36,987 bases of DNA from positions 1 to 36,987 of the forward strand of contig MCBE01000300.1 of the NCBI GenBank assembly GCA_001723845.1, written 5' to 3'. The notes under the pieces were generated by a model. The model searched no databases, was not told where the DNA came from, and saw nothing but the letters and a program-made list of their open reading frames with translations. The number at the start of each line of letters is the position of its first letter. The stretch's first letter is position 1. The position numbers and the translations under genes were made by a program. Shown one piece after another: positions 2,818-36,830 of this stretch. The DNA comes from Candidatus Altarchaeales archaeon WOR_SM1_SCG (GTDB lineage Archaea > Altiarchaeota > Altiarchaeia > IMC4 > WOR-SM1-SCG).

Positions 2818-3474
2818 ATGATTACCGCACAAAGAAAACCAATGGAGGACATAGTCAAAAACCTGCTTGACAAAAAAAAAGTGCTTGTCGTGGGCTGCAA
2901 CGGCTGCACCGCATTTCACCGGGTCGGCGGGGAGAAACAGGTAGGAGAATTTGCAAAACTGCTTAAAATTAATACGAAATTAAAGGATAAAGATATTGAA
3001 ATTATTGAGTCATGCGTTGAGGAGCAGTGCGGAAAGGAACTTGTTGAAGATGCTTTAAACGAAGTTATAAAGGGATGCGATGCCGTTGTCTCTCTTGCCT
3101 GCGGCGCGGGTGTCCAGCAGATAGCGGAAATCTATGACACAATTCCCGTTTACCCTGCAAATGACACTTTTCTTGTCGGCATTGAAAACAGGAAGGAATC
3201 AATACTGAGCGAGGTCTGCAAGGGCTGCGGGGATTGCATACTTGATGAAACCGCAGGGATATGCCCTAAAACAAGATGTATGAAAGGTTTATTGAACGGA
3301 CCGTGCGCGGGAGTTCATGACGGGTTGTGCGAACTCTCGACAAAAAATAATAAGATTCCATGCGGCTGGATGGAGATATATGATAAAATGGTCCGGCTGG
3401 GTACGGTAGATAAATTACTGGAAGTGAAAATGCCGAATGTTAATAAAAGAATGGTGCAGTTAGGGGATAGGTAA
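2818..3474 (+). CDS. metV: methylenetetrahydrofolate reductase C-terminal-domain protein (MetV-like)
   Basis: CNGCTAFHRVGGEKQV N-terminus, and CKGCGDCILDETAGICPKTRCMKGLLNGPCAGVHDGLCEL...CGWMEIYDKM C-terminus typical of MTHFR-C. Next to metF. Confidence 0.8.
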   Translation: MITAQRKPMEDIVKNLLDKKKVLVVGCNGCTAFHRVGGEKQVGEFAKLLKINTKLKDKDIEIIESCVEEQCGKELVEDALNEVIKGCDAVVSLACGAGVQQIAEIYDTIPVYPANDTFLVGIENRKESILSEVCKGCGDCILDETAGICPKTRCMKGLLNGPCAGVHDGLCELSTKNNKIPCGWMEIYDKMVRLGTVDKLLEVKMPNVNKRMVQLGDR

Positions 3475-3550
3475 TGATAATGATAAAATTTATAAATTTA
3501 TAAATTATAAAAATAATCGCAAAAAAATAAAATAAACCAATAAACTAAAA

Positions 3551-4471
3551 ATGAGTCTATTAAGAGATAATTTTGGAAAGAAGTTTATAGCAACAGGGGA
3601 AGCATCCCCTCCTCCAGGTCCTGATATGACAGAATTTGCTCATGAAGTTGCGGAGATGAAGCCGATGATGGATAAAATTGAAGGCGTGAATGTAGTTGAT
3701 ATCCCCGGAGCAAGGGTTCTTATGTCGTCTCTCGGTGCAAGCATATACATGATGCAGCAGGGCGTTGAGCCGATATTCCAGATGACTGTTAGGGATAGAA
3801 ATATGCTGGCACTCCAGGCGGATTTAATTTCGGCGGCAACATTCGGGATAGAAAATGTACTATCGCTGGCAGGAGACCACCCTGCGTGCGATGCAGCCGA
3901 CCACAAGGGAGCAAAGCCCGTCTATGACCTTGATTCAACCACGCTTATAACGACAATGAAGATGATGAACGATGGAAAGATGCTCAACGGCTCGGACATG
4001 AACGGCAAGACAAATTTCTTTATGGGGGCGGCAATCGGACCGACATCATCTCCTCTTGACGGCGAGGTCTATAAGACAAAGCGTAAGTTAAACGCGGGTG
4101 CTGATTTCTTCCAGACGCAGGGCATTTTTGATGTTGAGCCGATGCAGAATTTTTTAAATCTTTATGATAAATTAATCGGCGAGGACATAGCATCAAAAAC
4201 ACTTGTCGGGATTGTTCCCATAAGAAGTTACGGCATGATGATGTATTTGCTTTCAATGCCGGGCGTCGTAATTAAAGACGCGGTTGTAAATTCGGTGAAA
4301 AAAGCACAGGACGAGCAGAAAAAGACAGGCAAGAAAGGAATCATTGAAGATGCGGGAATAGATTTGTGCATTAACCTGGTGGATGATATAAAAGGACTCG
4401 GAATGAAGGGAGTTCACATCATGCCTGTCGGGAATGTAAGGGCGCTTAAGGCGATTGTTGGCAGCTTGTGA
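3551..4471 (+). CDS. metF: methylenetetrahydrofolate reductase (MetF-like)
   Basis: MTHFR TIM-barrel features: FIATGEASPPPGPD, VLSLAGDHP, FFQTQGIFDVE, VGIVPIRS, GVHIMPVGN. Confidence 0.85.
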   Translation: MSLLRDNFGKKFIATGEASPPPGPDMTEFAHEVAEMKPMMDKIEGVNVVDIPGARVLMSSLGASIYMMQQGVEPIFQMTVRDRNMLALQADLISAATFGIENVLSLAGDHPACDAADHKGAKPVYDLDSTTLITTMKMMNDGKMLNGSDMNGKTNFFMGAAIGPTSSPLDGEVYKTKRKLNAGADFFQTQGIFDVEPMQNFLNLYDKLIGEDIASKTLVGIVPIRSYGMMMYLLSMPGVVIKDAVVNSVKKAQDEQKKTGKKGIIEDAGIDLCINLVDDIKGLGMKGVHIMPVGNVRALKAIVGSL

Positions 4472-7656: not shown

Positions 7657-7715
7657 ATGGCACAATCCGAATACCACATTGATTTTTTCAAAAATAACGA
7701 CTTTAAGAGAAGAAA
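7657..7715 (+). pseudogene. alaS 5'-end remnant (about 20 codons)
   Basis: MAQSEYHIDFFKNNDFKRRN matches the start of the intact AlaRS at 13678 (MTQSEYNLDFFKNNDFKRRK). Differences are concentrated in a few codons, several of them synonymous. Confidence 0.85.
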
Positions 7716-8284: not shown

Positions 8285-8451
8285 ACAGCCCCCACCTGCC
8301 TCGCAAGTTTTTCACAGTATTCAAAGTATCTCTTTCTTTCTTTATATTCCCTATCCGTCGGCTTCAGAGACTCTATTCTATCCATTTCATCTAAAAACCT
8401 TACTGCATCATCTCCTTTAAGTTTCACCCCCAGTTCAAGCGGTCTTGCCAT
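8281..8451 (-). CDS. small conserved-looking protein (56 aa), tail-to-tail with the GNAT
   Basis: Manually translated below the ORF-track cutoff: MARPLELGVKLKGDDAVRFLDEMDRIESLKPTDREYKERKRYFEYCEKLARQVGAV*. Its stop overlaps the GNAT stop. Confidence 0.5.
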   Translation of the reverse strand: MARPLELGVKLKGDDAVRFLDEMDRIESLKPTDREYKERKRYFEYCEKLARQVGAV

Positions 8452-8568
8452 TTTAAAATCAGGTTAAGTTAAAGTTAAAATTAATCTAATTAAATATTAA
8501 TTTCAATTCTTTAAATTTAAAAAAATTGATTAAAGCACTTTTCTAATTTCTAACATAATCATCAAGAA

Positions 8569-8908
8569 ATGCTCAAGGATAAAAGTGTGAAATATTTGGT
8601 GTATGCGGATATTTTAGGGTTTGAAGAACTGGCAAAGGAAGTTGCAGGGGAAACAGGAGTAGATGAAGATTCGGTAAGGGAAAATTATCTCTCAAATCCT
8701 TTGAAAGATAAAATAGATGAAATAAAAAAAGATAAAGAAACAGAGGTCTGCACGGGAAGGGACGATTACCTGCTTTTCATTGACAATTTCCAAAAAAACA
8801 TTAGAAGTCATTAATGCACTTTCAAGTATCAAGATTCCGATAAAAAATTATGATTATATTCCTGTTGAAATCGCAGTCGGAGTAAAGGAATTTAAGGAAT
8901 GCGCAAAC
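8569..8908 (+). pseudogene. 5'-end duplicate of the cyclase-like/STAND/HEAT gene, frameshifted and truncated
   Basis: Near-identical to about 10311-10636 (YLVYADILGFEELAKE..AGETGVDEDSVRENYLSNPLKDKIDEIKKDKETEVCTGRDDYLLFIDNFQK). An extra A in the ccaaaaaaacatt run breaks the frame near 8800, and homology ends near 8908. Confidence 0.85.
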
Positions 8909-9009: not shown

Positions 9010-9053
9010 ATTTTGACAAGTTTAATATATAATCTGTCAAAGTTGTCAAAAAT
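9010..9053. repeat. left inverted repeat of the ATPase cassette (TTTTGACAA ... TGTCAAAGTTGTCAAAA)
   Basis: attttgacaagtttaatatataatctgtcaaagttgtcaaaaatt aligns with the reverse complement of 10216-10260. The 17-mer TGTCAAAGTTGTCAAAA is exact. Confidence 0.8.
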
Positions 9054-9070: not shown

Positions 9071-10222
9071 ATGCGTAATATAAACCCGTATATACCACAA
9101 ACAGGAAGTATTCCCCCATACTTTTCCGGAAGAAACAATGAGTTAAAATTATTTGAAACAAGGATACAAACCGCGAAAGAAGGGGGCAACATAGGACATT
9201 TAGCAATAATTGGGGGATGGGGTATTGGAAAAACCTCGCTTCTAAAAGAATTGAAGACAATTGCTGCGGAAAATAAATGCGAATCAAAATTGGTGGTCTG
9301 TCCGGAGATTAAAGATTCCAATGAATTTTCAGAGTTTATCATAGGCAAGGTTATTTCACCCACGGAGAGAATAAAAATAAAGAGTGTGAATATAATGGGC
9401 AGCGGCGGTGAGATAGATCGAGAAGTACCACATAAACATCCGCAAGTAAGATTGGTTGATGCACTATCCGAAAAATGGAATAATATAAAAGAAGAAACAA
9501 AACTATATGCGTTGATGGTGGATGATATTGATAAACTGTTGTCTGCGGAGAATGCGCTCACAACGCTTAGAAGTACATTTATAGAACTTTCAATGGAATA
9601 TGAATGCAGATATATGCTTATAGTGACCGGAGCAGAAGATCTCTTTGACAGATTTGCCGAGTATGGTATGACTGAACCATTAACACGATTTTTTGAACCG
9701 ATAATATTAAGAAGATTGAACAAAGAAGAAACAAGAGCAGCCATACTTAAACCCCTTGAAAAAACAAGTATAGAATTTGAAAATGAAGTCGTTGATAAGA
9801 TAGTAAATATAAGTGAAGGGCATCCCTACTATATCCAATTACTCTGTCATAGAATCTACGAGAGAACCGTAGATAAGGCAATAGATAAAGCAGATATGAG
9901 AGTATATGAGGACTCATTTGAAGATGCAATAAATGATATATCTGTGACAAGATTCAATAAAATTTATCCTAAATCAGAGATTGAAAAGACAATTCTTGAA
10001 ATACTTTCAGTTTCAGATGAACCACTCTCACATGCAGAAATAGCAGTTGAAGGGTTAAAAAGGAACATAAAAAGTTCGTCTATAGGAAAACCACTGCGCA
10101 GGTTATTGGATAAAAAATTAGTAAAGCAGATGGAAATAGGCGATAAAAAAGGAAAATATAAAATTTTCGATAATTTTTTTAATGAATATGTGCGACTAAA
10201 AGATCAATTACAAACATTTTGA
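9071..10222 (+). CDS. AAA+/STAND-type archaeal ATPase with C-terminal winged-helix-like region
   Basis: SGRNNELKLFETRI, GGWGIGKTSLLKEL (Walker A), YALMVDDIDKLL (Walker B), RYMLIVTGAEDLF (sensor), C-terminal AEIAVEGLKRNIKSSSIGKPLRRLLDKKLVKQ. Resembles the archaeal ATPase/Orc1-Cdc6-like group. Confidence 0.75.
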   Translation: MRNINPYIPQTGSIPPYFSGRNNELKLFETRIQTAKEGGNIGHLAIIGGWGIGKTSLLKELKTIAAENKCESKLVVCPEIKDSNEFSEFIIGKVISPTERIKIKSVNIMGSGGEIDREVPHKHPQVRLVDALSEKWNNIKEETKLYALMVDDIDKLLSAENALTTLRSTFIELSMEYECRYMLIVTGAEDLFDRFAEYGMTEPLTRFFEPIILRRLNKEETRAAILKPLEKTSIEFENEVVDKIVNISEGHPYYIQLLCHRIYERTVDKAIDKADMRVYEDSFEDAINDISVTRFNKIYPKSEIEKTILEILSVSDEPLSHAEIAVEGLKRNIKSSSIGKPLRRLLDKKLVKQMEIGDKKGKYKIFDNFFNEYVRLKDQLQTF

Positions 10223-10260
10223 CAACTTTGACAAAATTGATATACATATTGTCAAAAATA
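10216..10260. repeat. right inverted repeat of the ATPase cassette, overlapping the ATPase stop codon
   Basis: attttgacaactttgacaaaattgatatacatattgtcaaaaat. See left repeat 9010-9053. Confidence 0.8.
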
Positions 10261-10298: not shown

Positions 10299-13200
10299 AT
10301 GATGGTTGAAAATAAAAGTGCAAGGTATCTGGTGTATGCGGATATTTTAGGGTTTGAAGAACTGGCAAAAGAGATTGCAGGGGAAACAGGAGTAGATGAA
10401 GATTCGGTGAGGGAAAATTATCTCTCAAATCCTTTGAAAGATAAAATAGATGAAATAAAAAAAGATAAAGAAACAGAGGTCTGCACGGGAAGGGATGATT
10501 ACCTGCTTTTCATTGACAATTTCCAGAAAACATTAGAAGTCATTAATGCACTTTCAAGTATCAAGATTCCGATAAAAAATTATGAAAATATTCCCGTTGA
10601 AATCGCAGTCGGAGTGAAAGAATTTCAAGAATGCGATTACATAAAAAACAGCATAAACAAAACCAAAACAATAGAATTTCTCAAAGATGATATTGTAAGC
10701 CCGTATAAAAAGAAATACAAAAAAGAGCATGACGGAGAAGCAATTAAAGAAACATTTATCCTTCTCACGGGAGATGTTTTTGGAGAACTTGAAGGGGTTG
10801 ATAAAAAATCATGTGAAGAGATTTCTTATGGTGGGAAGCGGTTTTATTTGATGGACAAAGAAATGATTGAAACCAAAGTTAAAGTTCTTAAGTTTCTTGA
10901 GAAAATAGGGCATCCAAATAGTGACTATTATAAAAACATAAATGATGTTTTTGTTCCTCCAGATCACTATGGAAAAATAAAAAGGGATTTGGAAAATCAA
11001 CACATCGCTTTAATAGTTGGCACACCAGAATATGGAAAAACATACACTTCAGTAAGAATTTTATGGGAGTATTTCAATAAAGAAAATTACACTCCCATAT
11101 GGTTTGCTGGAGGCGATGAAAGAGATGATTCAGCAGAAAGATTAAAAAAGATTGGCGATGAATTAAAGCAAAAGCACATTATTTACTTTGAAGATCCGTT
11201 TGGAAAAACAAAATATAAAAGCAGATATGATTTAAGAAGACAAATCGGGTTTATTGTAAATAAAATTAAACAAACGGGCGATGCGTATGTTATAATCACA
11301 TCAAGAAACGATGTTTTTGAAGAATTTGAAAAAGAAAAATTATCCGAGCAGGAACTGGATGATTTTAAAACAGAATTAAATATATCAATCCCTTCTTATG
11401 GTTATGAAAAAAGGTGTGAAATTCTTTCTGAATGGGGAGAAAGTAAAGGGTGTAAATGGCTTGAGAATAATAAACTGAAAGATTTTGCTTTTAAATGTAT
11501 TAAAGAAGAAAAACTTCCAACACCTTTAAGCATCCATAATTTTACAGGTGAATCAAAAAATATCCTGAAAAAGGAGGAATTAAAGAAAAGTATTGATGAA
11601 CACTCAAGAGAAACAGCAAGAGTTTTTGCAGATGGAATCAAAGAACTTCCCGAAGACTGGATTTTATTTTTATCTTTTCCATTTATTTCTGAAGATTTTG
11701 ATATAAATTTCATTAAAAGAAAATACAACGATCTAACGAAAATTTTAGATATAAAATATCCAAACGATTTTGATAAAATTTTAAGTACGGATGATAGAGT
11801 TGATAAATATAAATCCCACTCAGAGAAAAATAGTATAAAATTTGTTCATCCCTCTTATTATGAATCGCTTCCGTATGCTTTAGATGAAAAAAAAGTAAAG
11901 AAAATATTTTGCAGTTTTTTATTAGAATTATCAAAGGATGAAAGTCAATTTGTTAGATTTAGGGTTGCTTATGCAGCCGCTAACAATTTCAATAAATTTC
12001 CTGAGACTGCCGAAAAGTTAATAAAGGAGTTATCAAAGGATGAGAACCCAGAGGTTAGGTGGAGGGTTGCTTATGCAGCCGCTAACAATTTCAATAAATT
12101 CCCTGAGACTGCCGAAAAGTTAATAAATGAGTTATCAAAGGATGGGAACCTAGAGGTTAGGTGGATGGTTGCTTATGCAGCCGCTAACAATTTCAATAAA
12201 TTTCATGAGACTGCCGAAAAGTTAATAAATGAGTTATCAAAGGATGGGAACCTAGAGGTTAGACGGAATGTTGCTCATGCAGCCGCTAACAATTTCAATA
12301 AATTTCCTGAAACTGCCGAAAAGTTAATAAAGGAGTTATCAAGGGATGGGAACCCAAAGGTTAGAGGGAGGGTTGCTCATGCAGCCGATAACAATTTCAA
12401 TAAATTTCCTGAGACTGCCGAAAAGTTAATAAAGGAGTTATCAAAGGATGAAAACCCAGAAGTTAGATGGAGGGTTGCTTATGCAGCCGCTAACAATTTC
12501 AATAAATTCCCTGAGACTGCCGAAAAGTTAATAAAGGAGTTATCAAAGGATGAAAACCCAGAAGTTAGATGGAGGGTTGCTCATGCAGCCGCTAACAATT
12601 TCAATAAATTCCCCGAGACTGCTGAAAAATTAATAAAGGAGTTATCAAAGGATTGGAACTCAGAAATTAGATGGAATGTTGCTTATGCCGCTGCTAACAA
12701 TTTCAATAAATTCCCCGAGACTGCTGAAAAATTAATAAAGGAGTTATCAAGGGATGGGAACCCAAAGGTTAGACGGAATGTTGCTTATGCAGCCGCTAAC
12801 AATTTCAATAAATTTCCTGAGACTGCCGAAAAATTAATAAAGGAGTTATCAAAGGATGAAAACCCAAAGGTTAGAGGGAGGGTTGCTTATGCAGCCGCTA
12901 ATAATTTCAATAAATTCCATGAGACTGCCGAAAAGTTAATAAATGAGTTATCAAAGGATGGGAACCCAGAAGTTAGAGGGAGGGTTGCTTATGCCGCTGC
13001 TAACAATTTCAATAAATTCCCCGAGACTGCTGAAAAATTAATAAAGGAGTTATCAAAGGATGGGAACCCAGAAGTTAGAGGGAGGGTTGCTTATGCAGCC
13101 GATAACAATTTCAATAAATTCCCCGAGACTGCTGAAAAGTTAATAAAGGAGTTATCAAAGGATGGGAACCCAGAAGTTAGAGGGAGGGTTGCTTATGCAG

Positions 13201-13616
13201 CCGATAACAATTTCGATAAATTCCCTGAGACTGCTGAAAAATTAATAAAGGAGTTATCAAAGGATGAGAACCCAGAAGTTAGAGGGATGGCTGCTCATGC
13301 AGCCGATAACAATTTCGATAAATTCCCTGAGACCGCTGAAAAATTACTAAAGAACTTATCAATGGATGAAAACCCTGATGTGAGAGGGAGGGTTGCTTAT
13401 GCCGTCGCATATGATTTTAATAAATTACCCGTTGAAGTCCAAAATCTACTTGACGGGCTTCAGAAAGAATTAGTATCAGAAATTGAGAAATTATCAAAAT
13501 CAAGACATAATCAGAATAGAGAACAAGTGATTGATGTACTTTTAAACGCAAAATCAAAACTGCTAAAAGAATCTGCAATCAAAATTTTTGACAAAATTAT
13601 CAAAAGACGAAAATAA
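10299..13616 (+). CDS. large protein: class III cyclase-like N-terminus, STAND-like NTPase, 15 HEAT repeats
   Basis: N-term YLVYADILGFEELAKE...GRDDYLLFIDNF...IPVEIAVGVKEF; P-loop IALIVGTPEYGKTYTSVRIL; Walker B-like HIIYFEDPFGKT; VIITSRNDVFEEF. C-term tandem 34-aa units ELSKDxNPEVRxxVAYAAxNNFNKFPETAEKLIK. Confidence 0.75.
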   Translation: MMVENKSARYLVYADILGFEELAKEIAGETGVDEDSVRENYLSNPLKDKIDEIKKDKETEVCTGRDDYLLFIDNFQKTLEVINALSSIKIPIKNYENIPVEIAVGVKEFQECDYIKNSINKTKTIEFLKDDIVSPYKKKYKKEHDGEAIKETFILLTGDVFGELEGVDKKSCEEISYGGKRFYLMDKEMIETKVKVLKFLEKIGHPNSDYYKNINDVFVPPDHYGKIKRDLENQHIALIVGTPEYGKTYTSVRILWEYFNKENYTPIWFAGGDERDDSAERLKKIGDELKQKHIIYFEDPFGKTKYKSRYDLRRQIGFIVNKIKQTGDAYVIITSRNDVFEEFEKEKLSEQELDDFKTELNISIPSYGYEKRCEILSEWGESKGCKWLENNKLKDFAFKCIKEEKLPTPLSIHNFTGESKNILKKEELKKSIDEHSRETARVFADGIKELPEDWILFLSFPFISEDFDINFIKRKYNDLTKILDIKYPNDFDKILSTDDRVDKYKSHSEKNSIKFVHPSYYESLPYALDEKKVKKIFCSFLLELSKDESQFVRFRVAYAAANNFNKFPETAEKLIKELSKDENPEVRWRVAYAAANNFNKFPETAEKLINELSKDGNLEVRWMVAYAAANNFNKFHETAEKLINELSKDGNLEVRRNVAHAAANNFNKFPETAEKLIKELSRDGNPKVRGRVAHAADNNFNKFPETAEKLIKELSKDENPEVRWRVAYAAANNFNKFPETAEKLIKELSKDENPEVRWRVAHAAANNFNKFPETAEKLIKELSKDWNSEIRWNVAYAAANNFNKFPETAEKLIKELSRDGNPKVRRNVAYAAANNFNKFPETAEKLIKELSKDENPKVRGRVAYAAANNFNKFHETAEKLINELSKDGNPEVRGRVAYAAANNFNKFPETAEKLIKELSKDGNPEVRGRVAYAADNNFNKFPETAEKLIKELSKDGNPEVRGRVAYAADNNFDKFPETAEKLIKELSKDENPEVRGMAAHAADNNFDKFPETAEKLLKNLSMDENPDVRGRVAYAVAYDFNKLPVEVQNLLDGLQKELVSEIEKLSKSRHNQNREQVIDVLLNAKSKLLKESAIKIFDKIIKRRK
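11925..13454 (+). repeat. tandem 102-bp coding repeats (15 HEAT units; 14 regular plus 1 degenerate)
   Basis: Counted unit by unit in the translation. Units begin at 11925, 12027 ... 13353 with no indels between regular units. Confidence 0.9.
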
Positions 13617-13677: not shown

Positions 13678-16563
13678 ATGACTCAATCCGAATACAACCT
13701 AGATTTTTTCAAAAACAACGACTTCAAAAGAAGAAAATGCAAATCCTGCAACCGCCACTTCTGGACTCAATCCGACAAAGAAATCTGCGGCGAACCCCCC
13801 TGCGAAGAATACACTTTCATCGGGCGCTCCCTGATGAATAAAAAATTAAATTTACATGAGATGCGGGAAGCATACCTATCATTCTTTGAGAGAAACGGGC
13901 ATACACGGATTGCAAGGTATCCCATCACGGCAAGATGGCGTGATGATGTCTTCTTCACCCAGGCATCAATCTATGATTTCCAGCCGTGGGTTATAAATAG
14001 AACCGTTGAGCCGCCTGCAAATCCCCTGACGATTTCGCAGACCTGTGTCCGGTTTAATGACATTGACAATGTCGGCAAAACCGGGAGGCACTTCACGATG
14101 TTTGAGATGATGGCTCACCATGCCTTTAACACTCCCGGAAACGAGATTTACTTTAAGGAAAGAACACTTGAATTATGTCATAATTTACTTACAAAAGACC
14201 TTGGGATTGACCCGATTGAAATTTCATACATCGAGGATGCCTGGGCTGGCGGCGGGAACTCCGGACCGTGCTTTGAAACAATGGTCGGAGGGGTTGAACT
14301 TGCAACGCTTGTTTTCATGATGTACGAGGAAACGCCTGCGGGAAAGAAAAAAATGGACATGCAGGTCGTTGACACGGGCTACGGGCTGGAGAGGTTTGCA
14401 TGGATGTCGCAGGGGACATCATCTGCTTATGAAGCGGTATTCGGAAGCGTTCTTGAGAAATTGAAAAAAGAGTCGGGAGTTCAAACGGCAAGTGACGATA
14501 AAATCCTGGGTGAATATTCAAAGGTCGCAGGGTTTTTGAATGTTGAAACCGAAGGCGATTTGCGAGAACTCAGAAAGAAAGTTGCAGACCGTCTGAACAT
14601 CACCGTCCCTGAACTTGAGAAACACACAAATCCTTCGGAGAATTTATATGCAATATGCGATCACACGCGGGCTTTGATGTTTATGTTAAATGACGGTGTT
14701 GTGCCGTCTAATGTAAAGCAGGGTTACTTTGCCCGTCTTCTTGTGAGGCGGACGATGAGGGCTTTAAAATCCCTTAACCTTAGCATCCCGATTTCAGAGA
14801 TTACGGGAATGCAGATAGATTATTTCAAAAACGACTTCCCTGATGTTTCAGAAAATAAATGCGAAATTTTAAATTTAATTAACATTGAAGAAGAGAAATA
14901 CAAAAATACAATCAAGCGGGGCAGGGGAATTGTAAAACGGGTTGAATGCGACATCCTGAAAAAAGGCGGCAATAAACTCGGAATTAATGATTTAATTGAC
15001 CTTTACGACTCGCACGGTTTAATCCCGCTCGCGGTTAAGGATTTCGCATCACTCGGTGTTGAAATTCCCGATGATTTTTACATACGGGTTGCTGCAAAAC
15101 ACGAGGGAACGGAAATTGAAGCAGAAGAGAAAGTCGCAGTCCCCGGTGATATTTCTGACACGGAACTTAAATACTACAAAATTGTTTCTCAATTCAGTGC
15201 AAGGGTCTTAAAGATTGATTACGAAAATAATTATATAATTCTTGACAGGACACACTTTTACCCTGAAGGCGGCGGGCAGGAAGCGGATACCGGAAGGATC
15301 GGGAATGCTCGTGTAGTTGATGTTCAAAAAATTAATTCCGTTGTTATTCATAAATTTAAAATTAAAGAAAATATTAAAATCAATTTCAGTGAAGGCGAGG
15401 ATGTTGAATGCGAAATTGACTTTAACAGGAGAAAACAGCTTACCCAGAATCATACGGCGACGCACATAATAAACGGTGCGGCAAGAAAAGTTTTAGGCAA
15501 TCATATCTGGCAGAGCGGGGCGCATAAAAGCGAGGACATTGCACGCCTTGATGTCACGCACTACGCATCACTTACGGATTTTGAGACGGAAGAAATTGAG
15601 AGGCAGGCAAACAGAATTATTGCCGAGAACAGGAAGATTGAAATTTTCACGCTCCCGAGAAACGAGGCGGAAAAAAGATACGGCTTTCGGCTGTACCAGG
15701 GAGGGGCTGTTCCCGGAAGAGACATAAGGATTGTTGACATAAAAAACTGGGATACCGAAGCATGCGGGGGAACGCACTGCGCGGGTGACAGATTTACAGG
15801 TAAAACCGGGGATGTTGAAGTGATAAAACTGATTCGCTCAAAAAGAATACAGGACGGCGTTGTAAGATTGGAATTTGTTGCAGGAGAGGCAGCGAGAAGA
15901 AACATAAGAAAGCAGGAGGAATTGTTTGAAAATTCACTTGCACCCATGCAAGAGTATTCGGGATTGAAAATTGAAATTCCCCTGGATTCGTATAATGTCA
16001 CAAGGGAACTGAAAGGTTCAGCCGACGCTCTTTCCGTTCCATTGGAGCAATTAGCGAAAACAACCCTGCGATTTGCGGGGGAATGTAAAAAAGCCAGGGA
16101 AGAGATAAAAGAACTTGAAGGAGACATCCCGGAATCAAAACTAAAGAACGCAAAAACATTATCAGATGCGTGTAAAATCCTCTTTGAAGAATGGAAATTA
16201 CTTGGTAAAGAAGTTGAAAAATTGAAGAAAAATTTAAAAAATAATGTTTATGAAAATTTAAATGAAAAATTCAAAACAAATAATTTTGTGAAATATATTG
16301 CTCACGGGCTTCCCGTAAAAGATGCAATAAGTTTAGCAAAGGAATTTACGGAAGGGAAAAATAGAATTTTAATTTTAATTAATGTTTCGGGAGGGAAGGC
16401 AAATGTTGTTTGTGCTTCTTCAAACCCTGAGGTTAATGCGGGGGATGCTGTACGGAAAATTTCAAATAAATTAGGGGGTGGGGGGCATGGTGATGTGAAA
16501 CTTGGGGTTGGCGGCGGGAAGGCAAAAGGCGTTGAGAAGGTTCTGGAAGGGTTTGAGATTTGA
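13678..16563 (+). CDS. alaS: alanyl-tRNA synthetase (archaeal type)
   Basis: FFERNGHTRIARYPITARWRDDVFFTQASIYDFQPWV, HTATHIINGAARKVLG, WDTEACGGTHCAGD, C-terminal DHHA1 domain with LGGGGHGD. Confidence 0.97.
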   Translation: MTQSEYNLDFFKNNDFKRRKCKSCNRHFWTQSDKEICGEPPCEEYTFIGRSLMNKKLNLHEMREAYLSFFERNGHTRIARYPITARWRDDVFFTQASIYDFQPWVINRTVEPPANPLTISQTCVRFNDIDNVGKTGRHFTMFEMMAHHAFNTPGNEIYFKERTLELCHNLLTKDLGIDPIEISYIEDAWAGGGNSGPCFETMVGGVELATLVFMMYEETPAGKKKMDMQVVDTGYGLERFAWMSQGTSSAYEAVFGSVLEKLKKESGVQTASDDKILGEYSKVAGFLNVETEGDLRELRKKVADRLNITVPELEKHTNPSENLYAICDHTRALMFMLNDGVVPSNVKQGYFARLLVRRTMRALKSLNLSIPISEITGMQIDYFKNDFPDVSENKCEILNLINIEEEKYKNTIKRGRGIVKRVECDILKKGGNKLGINDLIDLYDSHGLIPLAVKDFASLGVEIPDDFYIRVAAKHEGTEIEAEEKVAVPGDISDTELKYYKIVSQFSARVLKIDYENNYIILDRTHFYPEGGGQEADTGRIGNARVVDVQKINSVVIHKFKIKENIKINFSEGEDVECEIDFNRRKQLTQNHTATHIINGAARKVLGNHIWQSGAHKSEDIARLDVTHYASLTDFETEEIERQANRIIAENRKIEIFTLPRNEAEKRYGFRLYQGGAVPGRDIRIVDIKNWDTEACGGTHCAGDRFTGKTGDVEVIKLIRSKRIQDGVVRLEFVAGEAARRNIRKQEELFENSLAPMQEYSGLKIEIPLDSYNVTRELKGSADALSVPLEQLAKTTLRFAGECKKAREEIKELEGDIPESKLKNAKTLSDACKILFEEWKLLGKEVEKLKKNLKNNVYENLNEKFKTNNFVKYIAHGLPVKDAISLAKEFTEGKNRILILINVSGGKANVVCASSNPEVNAGDAVRKISNKLGGGGHGDVKLGVGGGKAKGVEKVLEGFEI

Positions 16564-21388: not shown

Positions 21389-21437
21389 CTAAGTGGGCTA
21401 AAAGCCCGCTATTTCTCGTCGGGAAACTCCGACTGAG
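21389..21437 (-). mobile_element. possible IS200/IS605 right-end / omegaRNA-like hairpin remnant
   Basis: Reverse complement ctcagtcggagtttcccgacgagaaatagcgggcttttagcccactt contains two stem-loops like those at the 3' end of archaeal IS605 tnpB elements. No tnpB is present. Confidence 0.45.
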
Positions 21438-21812
21438 GAATGGAAATTACTTGGTAAAGAAGTTGAAAAATTGAAGAAAAATTTAAAAAATAATGTTTAT
21501 GAAAATTTAAATGAAAAATTCAAAACAGGTAATTTTGTAAAATTTATCTCGCACGGGCTTGAAGTAAAAGATGCAATAAGTTTAGCAAAGGAATTTACGG
21601 AAGGGAAAAATAGAATTTTAATTTTAATTAATGTTTCCGGCGGGAAGGCAAATGTTGTCTGCGCTTCTTCAAACCCGGATGTTAATGCGGGGGGTGCTGC
21701 AAAAAAAATTTCAAATAAATTAGGGGGTGGGGGGCATGGTGATGAGAAACTTGGGGTTGGCGGCGGTAAGGCGGAGAGCGTTGAGGATGTCCTGGCGAAG
21801 TTTGAAATTTGA
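21438..21812 (+). pseudogene. alaS 3'-end fragment (DHHA1/C-Ala domain), frame intact
   Basis: Same length as and gap-free with 16189-16563. First ~95 nt essentially identical, more divergent toward the 3' end. Ends in LGGGGHGDEKLGVGGGKAESVEDVLAKFEI*. Confidence 0.9.
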
Positions 21813-21983
21813 TTTCATTAACATAATTGGAATTCTTATAGACAGTTATCGGGATTATATTCCTGGGCGTAATCATGTTTTATTTTATATTGGTTGAATT
21901 CAGGATGTTTGCACAAATCTATAAAGAATCAAAAGAAAAATTAATTGAAACCGCACCTTTATAATCCAAATTTAATTTAATTT

Positions 21984-33700: not shown

Positions 33701-34050
33701 CTTACTGTTGATTGTTTCACCTGTGCAGGCGCCGGGTTTTAGAATTCCGGGTAGGTTGCTATTTTTGAACTTACAACTTACCTATGGCAGACAATAGTTT
33801 CAGATGTCCTTTTACAAGATGATTGAACTTATTTATCTCATCAATAACTATCCTGCTCTTTTCACCATCTCTTAAATGGTCTGATTTCTCCGTTTTTGAT
33901 CCGGTTTCTGATTTCATCGTGCGAATAATAATTTTCCCTGATGCCCACCATAACTTTAGCATAACCAGGTTCATCTTTTATTTTAAACTTTCCATTATTC
34001 TCTTTTATGAAGTACTTTGATATTTAGTATTAAAAAATTAAATTAAAATT

Positions 34051-34340
34051 CACTTCCCTTCAATCAGTCCCATCTCCTCATCCGTCAACCCGTAAAGTTC
34101 ATAAACAAGTTTATCAATCTCTCTTTCTGCCCCGGAACCGATTTTGACCTTTTTGTTGATGTCAACAAAATGGTCTTCAATGTTTGCCCCCCGAGTTTTT
34201 GCACGATTCTTTTGCTTTATTTAGAACCAATATGAAATTTATCCATTGCGTGTATCCCAATAATACCTGTAAATCCCTGGCAAACCGGAATTCAACACCT
34301 TCCACTTTATTTACATAATCTTCAAATGTTATTTTTCTTT
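34051..34340 (-). pseudogene. DinD-like N-terminal segment fused to an R-M methylase tail, frameshifted
   Basis: KITFEDYVNKVEGVEFRFARDLQVLLGYTQWINFILVLNKAKESCKNSG, frameshift at a GGGGGG run, then ANIEDHFVDINKKVKIGSGAEREIDKLVYELYGLTDEEMGLIEGK*. Confidence 0.7.
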
Positions 34341-35185
34341 ATTTTGCTGTTTAATCTGTTTTGCTTTTTTTCCTGTTAAATGGAGGTAATTTCCGTTTGA
34401 GATAATGGACTTACCTGTTTTTTGCTCAATTTCTTTTCGTGTATTTTTTGCAATTGTTCCTCCTTCAACAGCCGAATCCCTGCATTCCACAAATCCTTCC
34501 GAGTCCTTTGAAATTGTGATGTCGGTTGTTGCTTTCTCACCGATCATGGTTAAAATCAACTCCCAGTCATTCATGTGATCTCTCAGGTTTTGATTTTTGA
34601 ATTTCGGGTCAAGTCCTTTTATTTTTTATGTTCCTTGATTGATATATCAAATGTTGCTTTTGAAATTTCGTTTGTAAGGATTGCGTAGTCCTTTTGTTCT
34701 TCAATTCCCCTCCTGCTCCATTCGTCTGTCAATTCCTGTCTTATGGCAATTCCTCTGAGCCGTTTTTCAATCCAGTCCTTTGGATAACCTTTAAGTTCAT
34801 AGTACTTTTTTGCCCGCTCCTGTGCAAGTTCGGGGTTTTCTATTTCCCGGATTCGCTCGTAGCCGACCCTTGCAAGCCATCTCTTGAATGGTTCCGCTTT
34901 CTTTGAGGGGATGGACTGGATAATCCTGAAAGTGTTTTCTGTGTTTGTACAATCTGTTTTGTATTTTTTACCGTCTGCTGCTGCTAATTTCAGTTGTACC
35001 CAAATTGGGGACAACTCAAGTTTTTTAAACTCCCGGTCTTTAACTTTACCCCAGTATTGCCTTGGTGTGGGACTATCAGTCAAGACCTCCATAACATCAA
35101 CAACCGAGAAATACCATTCCCCATCATGCCATGTTCTCCTGATTCTCTTTCCTTGAAATACTACTAATGCTTTATCCGGGTTCAT
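34329..35185 (-). pseudogene. BRO-N/phage-antirepressor-like protein, split by frameshift near 34619
   Basis: MNPDKALVVFQGKRIRRTWHDGEWYFSVVDVMEVLTDSPTPRQYWGKVKDREF...; after EHKK* the alternate frame reads KGLDPKFKNQNLRDHMNDWELILTMIGEKATTDITISKDSEGF into ORF 34329..34574. Confidence 0.75.
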
Positions 35186-35221
35186 TTTTTGATTAAATTA
35201 AAATTCAATAATTATCAAAAT

Positions 35222-35452
35222 TTATCCCCCCTCAATAATTTTAATCTCCCCCTCCGCCAGCCCGTAAAGTTCATAAACTAATTTGTCAATCTCTCTTTCT
35301 GCCCCGGAACCGATTTTGACCTTTTTGTTGATGTCAACAAAATGGTTCTCAATTACCTGTAAATCCCTGGCAAAGCAGAGTTCAATGCCATCCGCTTCAT
35401 TTACATAATCTTCAAATGTTATTTTAAGTTTTGTGATTATTTCTTTTTTCAT
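35222..35452 (-). CDS. chimeric small ORF: internally deleted DinD-like segment fused to an R-M methylase C-terminal tail
   Basis: FEDYVNEADGIELCFARDLQV|IENHFVDINKKVKIGSGAERE|IDKLVYELYGLAEGEIKIIEGG. Same fusion as at 34051-34340, lacking the LLGYTQW..NSG segment. Confidence 0.55.
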   Translation of the reverse strand: MKKEIITKLKITFEDYVNEADGIELCFARDLQVIENHFVDINKKVKIGSGAEREIDKLVYELYGLAEGEIKIIEGG

Positions 35453-35496
35453 TTTCGGTTATTTTTCTTTATTGCAACCTTCTGAAAGGTTGATCA

Positions 35497-36375
35497 TCAG
35501 ATGCCATCTTCGCTTCGCTTGATGACATTATGAATTTTTGATTTTGATTTTTCCAGTGTCATTAAAAATCTCATAAATGTCCCGGTCAAATATATCATAA
35601 ATTCAATTTCTTCCTCTTTGATTTTATCTTCATGTTTTACATAACGATTCTGGTAGTCAGTGTAACGCCCCAATAATGTATGATACATACCCCCTATTTC
35701 CGTTGTAACGCATTTATCTTTTAGGTATTTTCCTAATTCATTTTTTTGGTTTTCTATGCTTTTCTCGTTTCCGAGAATACTCTTTAACAAAAATTCTAAA
35801 GATAATCTCAAATCATCAACCAAATTTCTTTCATAATGTCTATTTTCATACTTCTCCAAAGCACTCCTGAAGTTTTTGTGTACTTTTGGATATTTACTTA
35901 TCCAATCAAGAACATCATCAACTACTTTTTCATCTAATAATTTTGCACCGGCAGGATAAAAGAGGTATTCGTCTTTTACTTTTACTAAGTTGATTTGTAA
36001 ACGAGAACAATCAATGTCATGTTTAAAATGCTCAAATAATTTTGGATTTATCCTTAAATTTCTAATCATAAGGTCTATCCAGAATAATACTTGCAGATAA
36101 AAAATATATTTAGTGGGATTTTTTTCTTTGTTCAAAAGACAATAAATTTTTGTTTTGTTAAAAGATTCAACTAGTGAGAGCAAACCTCTTTTAGGTATTC
36201 TCGCTCCAACGATACCTAAAAAGTCATCTTCGATACTGTGTGGTACTCTTGCGTTCCCAAAAATTTTATTAATTGAGTTCATTGTTCTGTTTTTAAATTC
36301 TCTAAATTTTTCTTCGTCATCTACTTGAACTTTCCATATTTTATCAAATTTTTTTCTTTTGTCTTGTAAATCCAT
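35497..36375 (-). CDS. uncharacterised 292-aa protein, possible Abi/HEPN-type defence protein
   Basis: Long ORF with a helical, charged C-terminus (YENRHYERNLVDDLRLSLEFLLKSILGNEKSIENQ...). Located among R-M remnants. Confidence 0.5.
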   Translation of the reverse strand: MDLQDKRKKFDKIWKVQVDDEEKFREFKNRTMNSINKIFGNARVPHSIEDDFLGIVGARIPKRGLLSLVESFNKTKIYCLLNKEKNPTKYIFYLQVLFWIDLMIRNLRINPKLFEHFKHDIDCSRLQINLVKVKDEYLFYPAGAKLLDEKVVDDVLDWISKYPKVHKNFRSALEKYENRHYERNLVDDLRLSLEFLLKSILGNEKSIENQKNELGKYLKDKCVTTEIGGMYHTLLGRYTDYQNRYVKHEDKIKEEEIEFMIYLTGTFMRFLMTLEKSKSKIHNVIKRSEDGI

Positions 36376-36405
36376 TTTAGTTATTTGTTTTTAAAAATAA
36401 AATTT

Positions 36406-36830
36406 TTATGACTCTTCAACAATTTTAATCTCCCCCTCCGCCAGCCCGTAAAGTTCATAAACAAGTTTATCAATTTCTTTATCCGTCTCTCTAATCTCCT
36501 TCTCTATCCTTGCTTTTTCAGCCAAGTCATCTTGTATTTCTTTAAGACGCTCATTGAGAGAAAGCATTTTATCTGCGAGTTCTATGAAGGGTTTTTGCTC
36601 TGAAAAAGAAATCTTTTTAATCGGCAATCTTTTAAAATCATCAGGATAAAAATAATATTCAATTCTATGCCTTCTTATTGTGTTGAGATAGAATTTAGCG
36701 AATTTTGAATTTAGTATAGCTAGGATATATTTCAGGTCAAAGTTTAAAGAAATTTCTTCTAATTCCTTTCTGGTTTTAGATGTCCATTGCTTCTAATCAA
36801 TTTCAAACTTCTTTCAATAAATGGAATGAA
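36406..36830 (-). pseudogene. C-terminal fragment of Eco57I/TaqI-type R-M methylase
   Basis: Frame open upstream of the tabled ATG to 36789: QWTSKTRKELEEISLNFDLKYILAILNSKFAKFYLNTIRRHRIEYYFYPDDFKRLPIKKISFSEQKPFIELADKML...EIDKLVYELYGLAEGEIKIVEES. A different-frame piece (ERSLKLIRSNG) lies just upstream. Confidence 0.7.

Follow-up and report, generated by a model that had tools for sequence, protein, structure and literature searches.

A gene at positions 10299 to 13616 (+) of contig MCBE01000300.1 from Candidatus Altarchaeales archaeon WOR_SM1_SCG encodes, in one chain of 1105 amino acids, a cyclase-like domain, an nSTAND3 NTPase domain, a linker/winged-helix-like region and 15 HEAT units. The window, i.e., the whole stretch of 36,987 nucleotides that was analyzed, holds this gene in complete form. 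The product is probably a receptor of some immune kind, built on a signal transduction ATPase with numerous domains (STAND) and carrying a cyclase-derived head. The fuller reading, an archaeal immune receptor akin to the antiviral STAND (Avs) proteins and NOD-like receptors (NLRs), in which the repeats sense and the head makes a nucleotide signal upon oligomerization, is given about even chances. An archaeal STAND system with a cyclase-like head had been suggested from the letters alone (below, the sequence-only reading), and the suggestion is now supported at the computational level by the predicted fold, the nSTAND3 match, residue conservation and the defense loci of relatives.

Domain organization of the gene

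The gene is a single intact open reading frame (ORF) with an ATG start and zero internal stops, and all features assigned to it lie on the + strand. The order effector, STAND NTPase and C-terminal repeats is present in the protein. The N-terminal strings YLVYADILGF, DDYLLFIDNF and VEIAVGV, quoted by the sequence-only reading, were all found in the ORF, with DILGF at residues 15 to 19, the GRDDY turn around residue 66 and EIAVG at residues 101 to 105.

The central domain, proposed earlier as a STAND NTPase, was identified in Pfam as nSTAND3 (PF20720; residues 218 to 377, positions 10950 to 11429) with 68.1 bits against a curated cut-off of 27.2 (E 9.4e-19). The same family was also above its cut-off in both genes of L017 and in L038, L043, L059 and L061 (L numbers designate the loci compared here). 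In the fold comparison with a 554-residue model, the NTPase part, residues ~195 to 446, aligned to AAA+ ATPases with a Z of ~13. The P-loop GTPEYGKT (Walker A, residues 241 to 248, positions 11019 to 11042) and the Walker-B-like IIYFEDP (residues 294 to 300, positions 11178 to 11198, placed by the alignment of relatives) were recovered as described before. Conservation was counted over 10 aligned proteins; the protein of L043 was set apart, and L062 (frameshifted), L042 (pseudogene) and L041, L044 and L018 (fragments) were omitted. On this count the NTPase motifs are intact, with G246, K247 and T248 in 10/10 and E298 and D299 in 9/10 each. An HPSY motif C-terminal to the NTPase (residues 517 to 520, positions 11847 to 11858) has H517, S519 and Y520 in 10/10. 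The 15 C-terminal HEAT units of the sequence-only reading proved to be exactly 15 units of 34 amino acids each (residues 543 to 1052, positions 11925 to 13454), a probable sensor array delimited by repeat finding, Pfam and unit analysis and covered by HEAT_2 (E 1.2e-57).

Predicted fold of the N-terminal head

AlphaFold2 models of residues 1 to 214 and of residues 1 to 554 were built from a 4-sequence alignment. In the longer model, residues 3 to 188 aligned with Ma1120 (4wp9), a class III adenylyl cyclase of mycobacterial origin, over 156 of 165 target residues (Z 11.9, root-mean-square deviation 4.3), and Foldseek gave a probability of 1.00 to guanylate cyclases; most fold matches of this model were AAA+ proteins. 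The class III cyclase-like N terminus postulated earlier therefore came out positive in the fold check, and the domain was delimited to residues 8 to 188 (positions 10320 to 10862) by the models, fold matches and conservation. Class III cyclases were also the top matches of the shorter model, among whose matches were GGDEF domains, mCpol 9pd0 and a Cas10 palm; this comparison was weaker, with no Foldseek E below 0.001. Matches of the short model to the ferredoxin-like HemQ were discarded for their lower probability.

Searches of Pfam, NCBIfam, PADLOC and PDB sequences returned nothing usable for the N terminus. The protein is called cyclase-like because a class III fold is predicted but no profile match accompanies it. 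A Tad8 label (E 0.0037, 17.4 bits versus a cut-off of 27) was taken as chance, and the labels OloA (PADLOC) and AvrBs3 (NCBIfam) were discarded, as their matches lay mainly within the repeat array.

Conservation of the head residues

Eight head residues, D15, G18, F19, D66, E101, G105, Y136 and T157, occur in 10/10 aligned proteins, and K141 in 9/10, at N-terminal identities down to ~27-46%. D15 (positions 10341 to 10343), in YADILGF, and D66 (positions 10494 to 10496), in the turn between strands 2 and 3 (E59-63 and E67-72 of the AlphaFold2 model), are the putative first and second metal-binding aspartates, a role suggested by where the predicted fold puts them. The search for catalytic residues thus turned up an invariant putative two-metal site. 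E101 (positions 10599 to 10601) lies in the EIAVG strand, and Y136 and K141 (positions 10704 to 10721) lie on a long helix that appears to stand in for the one bearing the Asn/Arg pair in class III cyclases. The frameshifted L062 retains both aspartates and has Ala at E101. In the head of L061 (L061:8702-9300), a relative linked to restriction-modification genes, two DDW stretches were seen, as if the head were partly duplicated.

In the protein of L043, D15, D66, E101, Y136, T157 and K141 are replaced by G, N, K, C, A and S, respectively, whereas both Walker motifs, TSR and HPSY are retained; the protein begins with ~175 extra residues without clear family. That the set was lost jointly, and in the only member with added N-terminal sequence, is the best hint that its residues act together as an active site. 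Such a loss would be expected of a catalytic set freed in L043 after another N-terminal region took over.

The same protein could be read in another way, namely, that the cyclase-like head is catalytically dead and serves as a nucleotide binder or as an oligomerization or adaptor module, with the immune output elsewhere. A version without the aspartates and the lack of visible canonical class III transition-state residues would fit such a module, and inactive cyclase domains are described in conflict systems (Kaur et al. 2020, PMC7159879). We hold it to be rather unlikely, however, given that D15, D66, E101 and Y136 stay invariant at the divergence stated above and that the sole exception acquired another N-terminal region.

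HEAT repeat array

Tandem Repeats Finder reported a 102-bp period with 14.1 copies, 92% matches and a score of 2226 at positions 11961 to 13402, and units 2 to 14 share a mean identity of 90%. The repeats look recently amplified, and their copy number ranges from ~2 to 20 across relatives. Internally conserved repeats are likewise described for fungal NLRs (PMC4986451).

The proportions of nonsynonymous (pN) and synonymous (pS) differences were 0.125 and 0.162 at positions 4 to 19 of the unit and 0.029 and 0.323 at positions 20 to 34. Nonsynonymous changes thus cluster in the former region and are nearly absent from the latter. The signal is moderate: values as extreme arose in 194 of 20000 randomly drawn column sets and in 3 of 34 circular shifts. 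The variable residues of the unit are 12 (W/G/R), 13 (R/N/M), 16 (Y/H) and 19 (A/D), whose spacing would place them on one helix face. A sibling array at L018:4362-6119, which belongs to a different genome of the same phylum and survives as a C-terminal fragment, showed a pN of 0.218 versus a pS of 0.088 in the matching region and hot spots at -9, -8, -5 and -1, of which three (-9, -8 and -5) coincide with those of the window array. The L018 array is a candidate for diversifying selection.

Distribution of relatives and their gene neighborhoods

The genome search found the family in 3/29 genomes of the same phylum, 7/392 of the phylum of L024, 7/237 of the class of G169 and 4/58 of the class of L024; these four sets overlap, and the total is 14 distinct genomes, that of the window included. 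The relatives come from Altiarchaeota and from methanogen and anaerobic methanotrophic (ANME) lineages; L023 is a contig of Candidatus Altarchaeum in which the gene occurs twice in tandem, and L024 is a Methanophagales contig. Broken or fragmentary copies occur among them. No homologue of the head was found in the searched phages, plasmids and viral contigs, and one plasmid matched the NTPase region only (27%).

Ten loci hold an intact or near-intact gene: the window, L023, L024, L038, L039, L040, L043, L059, L060 and L061. Defense operons enclose it at three of them, L038, L039 and L061. In L038, the operon is of type III-F (Cas10f with 8e-93, Cas5_IIIf, Cas11f, Cas7_IIIf and Cas6b), with cas10 136 bp from the gene and, on the gene's other side, a long CRISPR array with 73 repeat copies in one listed repeat family. 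In L039, a III-C set (Cas10c with 1e-154, which NCBIfam also labels Csx11; Cmr6, Cmr4, Cmr5 and Cmr3) ends 68 bp before the gene, which follows Cmr3. In L061, the gene belongs to a type I restriction-modification operon, where hsdS and hsdR flank it.

A further explanation arises from the two CRISPR loci: the gene would serve cyclase-dead type III systems as a dedicated accessory, its head or the whole receptor replacing the lost Cas10 signal. The linked proteins of L038 and L039 are sisters (support 99/100) despite the III-F and III-C types of their neighbors, and a search of both Cas10 proteins for ten GGDD-type motifs found none, while an HD near the N terminus was kept. Hoikkala et al. (PMC11229360) describe III-C and III-F systems as being without cyclase sites and known effectors. 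Such a dedicated role is nevertheless very improbable, since the link is confined to 2/10 loci: 18 of 237 genomes of the class hold Cas10c, a relative occurs in 1/18, and 18 loci from the other 17 genomes hold none, in a neighbor scan that recovered all five known members as a positive control. No repeat-associated mysterious protein (RAMP) genes were found in the window's own genome (74% complete), and the operon place differs, the gene being first in L038 and last in L039. CRISPR linkage as a rule was accordingly rejected, and the link to III-C is only occasional.

Proposed mechanism and weighing of the evidence

In the immune reading, the HEAT array (543-1052) would bind a foreign or infection-linked molecule and, once ligand bound, would free the nSTAND3 NTPase (218-377) for nucleotide exchange and oligomerization, which would gather the N-terminal cyclase-like domains (8-188). 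The active site of class III cyclases is formed between two protomers, and clustering of the heads would for this reason activate them. Once active, they would make a nucleotide second messenger that acts on a receiver, through which an antiviral effect may be exerted. A more far-reaching version, in which a STAND switch that senses protein drives a divergent cyclase, one polypeptide converts invader recognition into a diffusible nucleotide alarm, and one clade was recruited to III-C/III-F systems with a cyclase-dead Cas10 to restore signaling, appears quite doubtful.

In L060, a DUF6602/NucC-like PD-(D/E)xK nuclease (L060:3781-4605; PADLOC NucC-type model with 1e-15) lies ~3.9 kb upstream of the gene. 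NucC is a nuclease activated by a cyclic nucleotide, and the L060 protein is a possible receiver, though four genes intervene. In the Methanophagales locus, a HepT-like gene follows the relative at a distance of 345 bp, with an NB-ARC-TPR gene beyond it; the HepT-like (HEPN) genes near this relative number two (L024:2638-3090 and 8306-8680).

Several results weigh against the immune, signal-generating receptor. Confidence of the models was moderate, with a predicted local distance difference test score of 58.7 for residues 1 to 214 and 68.1 for residues 1 to 554, and in the long model the Foldseek E for cyclases was only ~2e-3. The class III cyclase profile (Guanylate_cyc etc.) matched none of seven N-termini, alone or in the whole protein, and in the PADLOC scan no Avs model matched the window protein up to E 0.1. 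The canonical N-x3-R signature was not visible in the aligned heads, where Y136 and K141 appear to stand on the corresponding helix; as the pair was not seen, neither substrate nor product can be guessed. Over all units of the window array, pN/pS is 0.34, which is not positive selection overall, and the entropy profile of this array showed no significant correlation with that of L018 (rho 0.25, P = 0.24). No receiver for a messenger is evident beside the gene, and the scarcity of relatives at Cas10c loci and the lack of RAMP genes, given above, count in the same direction. The defense-island search proposed in the sequence-only reading was positive in part: homologues are not restricted to housekeeping contexts, 3/10 being in III-F, III-C and type I restriction-modification operons, but the other 7/10, the window included, were without a defense operon among the ORFs read and the subset of neighbors scanned.

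These seven loci would suit a non-immune signaling protein, a cyclase controlled by a STAND-type NTPase and repeats in the manner of soluble adenylyl cyclase or MalT, which would sense a cellular protein or metabolite. Its plan of cyclase, NTPase and repeats is known from housekeeping signaling, the window gene has the ordinary neighbors alaS and MTHFR, and a nearby ATPase with a winged-helix-like part may have a putative operator in common with it. Against it stand the patchy spread in 3/29, 7/392 and 7/237 genomes, the genes located within III-F, III-C and type I restriction-modification operons, the broken or fragmentary copies and the hypervariable arrays of strongly differing copy number, and on this balance a purely cellular role is judged unlikely.

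Local genetic context

Upstream of the gene lies a 383-amino-acid ATPase ORF (nSTAND1/ATPase_2-like; 9071 to 10222, +), 76 bp away, whose C-terminal winged-helix-like part makes it a possible regulator. An inverted pair, TTTTGACAA-N23-TTGTCAAAA, is located directly upstream of the gene (10217 to 10257, no strand assigned), a putative operator over an AT-rich, TATA-like stretch, and a second copy of it upstream of the ATPase ORF (9011 to 9051, no strand assigned). The 2.55-Mb genome assembly contains those two copies only, and they flank the ATPase ORF. The pair may be either an operator common to both genes, to which the ATPase might bind through its winged-helix-like part, or a mark of where a small inserted unit begins and ends. 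A degraded second copy of the gene's 5' part (8579 to 8903, +; 94% DNA identity, frameshift) closely precedes the ATPase ORF.

The flanking alaS begins 61 bp downstream, and MTHFR lies upstream. Fragments of alaS (13678-16563) were found elsewhere in the window, at 7657-7715 for its start (86%) and at 21434-21814 for its end (91%). MTHFR and its C-terminal-type gene (2818-4471; L017:35-3790) occur within ~8 kb upstream of the STAND gene in both the window and the Altarchaeum relative, and this MTHFR-adjacent position may be a shared location or a hot spot. Near the end of the window (34016-36478), several related repeats of ~70-170 bp with 77-89% identity are present.

The same genome encodes another STAND-repeat receptor, a 1285-amino-acid NACHT protein with a long HEAT array (L020:5328-9185, contig C44), and three large paralogues (L019:2903-6166, L021:3222-6443 and L022:2107-4851) in which HEAT-type repeats lead into TPR-like and coiled-coil-like stretches and in whose sequence no STAND domain was noticed.

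Comparison with known systems

The general plan is not itself new: a cyclase, a STAND-type NTPase and repeats are also combined in human soluble adenylyl cyclase and in some cyclases of mycobacteria. Searches of open-licence papers found no description of a cyclase head with nSTAND3 and repeats; nSTAND3 turned up in two papers, with no mention of a cyclase head, and a STAND-bearing variant shown in PMC12669027 may overlap with the combination described here.

Among the Avs (AVAST) proteins, Avs5, described as SIR2, nSTAND3 and repeats (PMC12931631), is the closest in layout, with the same order of effector, STAND NTPase and C-terminal repeats and the nSTAND3 family in both. In contrast to Avs5, the head of the window protein is cyclase-like and not SIR2, its repeats are of the HEAT type, and it is archaeal; it is not filed as an Avs protein because no Avs profile in PADLOC matches it.

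With the fungal NLRs of the HET-E/HNWD type (PMC4986451), the protein shares an NTPase and amplified, near-identical repeats whose variable residues cluster on one face, while the NTPase class, the repeat and the head differ and the pN/pS of the whole window array is below 1. The near-identical HEAT arrays would be an archaeal counterpart to these fast-evolving repeats.

STAND NTPase genes also adjoin defective, Cas3-less I-E CRISPR loci (PMC6452270 and PMC12231136). In both cases a CRISPR effector module with a lost activity stands beside a STAND gene; those systems are bacterial and of type I-E, whereas the loci reported here are archaeal, of types III-C and III-F, and have a cyclase-like head with nSTAND3. 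For III-C and III-F systems, which according to PMC11229360 are without cyclase motif or known effectors, the STAND-cyclase neighbor is a concrete candidate.

The palms of mCpol/Panoptes OptS, GGDEF and Cas10 resemble the head in their palm-type fold and were among its fold matches, but their alignment is shorter (9pd0, 101 columns), the head is without GGDEF/GGDD, and class III cyclases are the better match to the head's later half. With the class III cyclases, such as Ma1120 and soluble guanylate cyclase, it shares the predicted full-domain fold and two aspartates at the expected strands, and it differs from them in having no profile match and, as it appears, a Y136...K141 helix in place of the N-x3-R helix. 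In known STAND immune receptors, a built-in effector, e.g., a nuclease or NADase (SIR2 in Avs5), kills the cell or stalls it; a cyclase-like head would instead make the receptor a signal generator, joining sensing of the Avs/NLR type with cyclic-nucleotide immunity.

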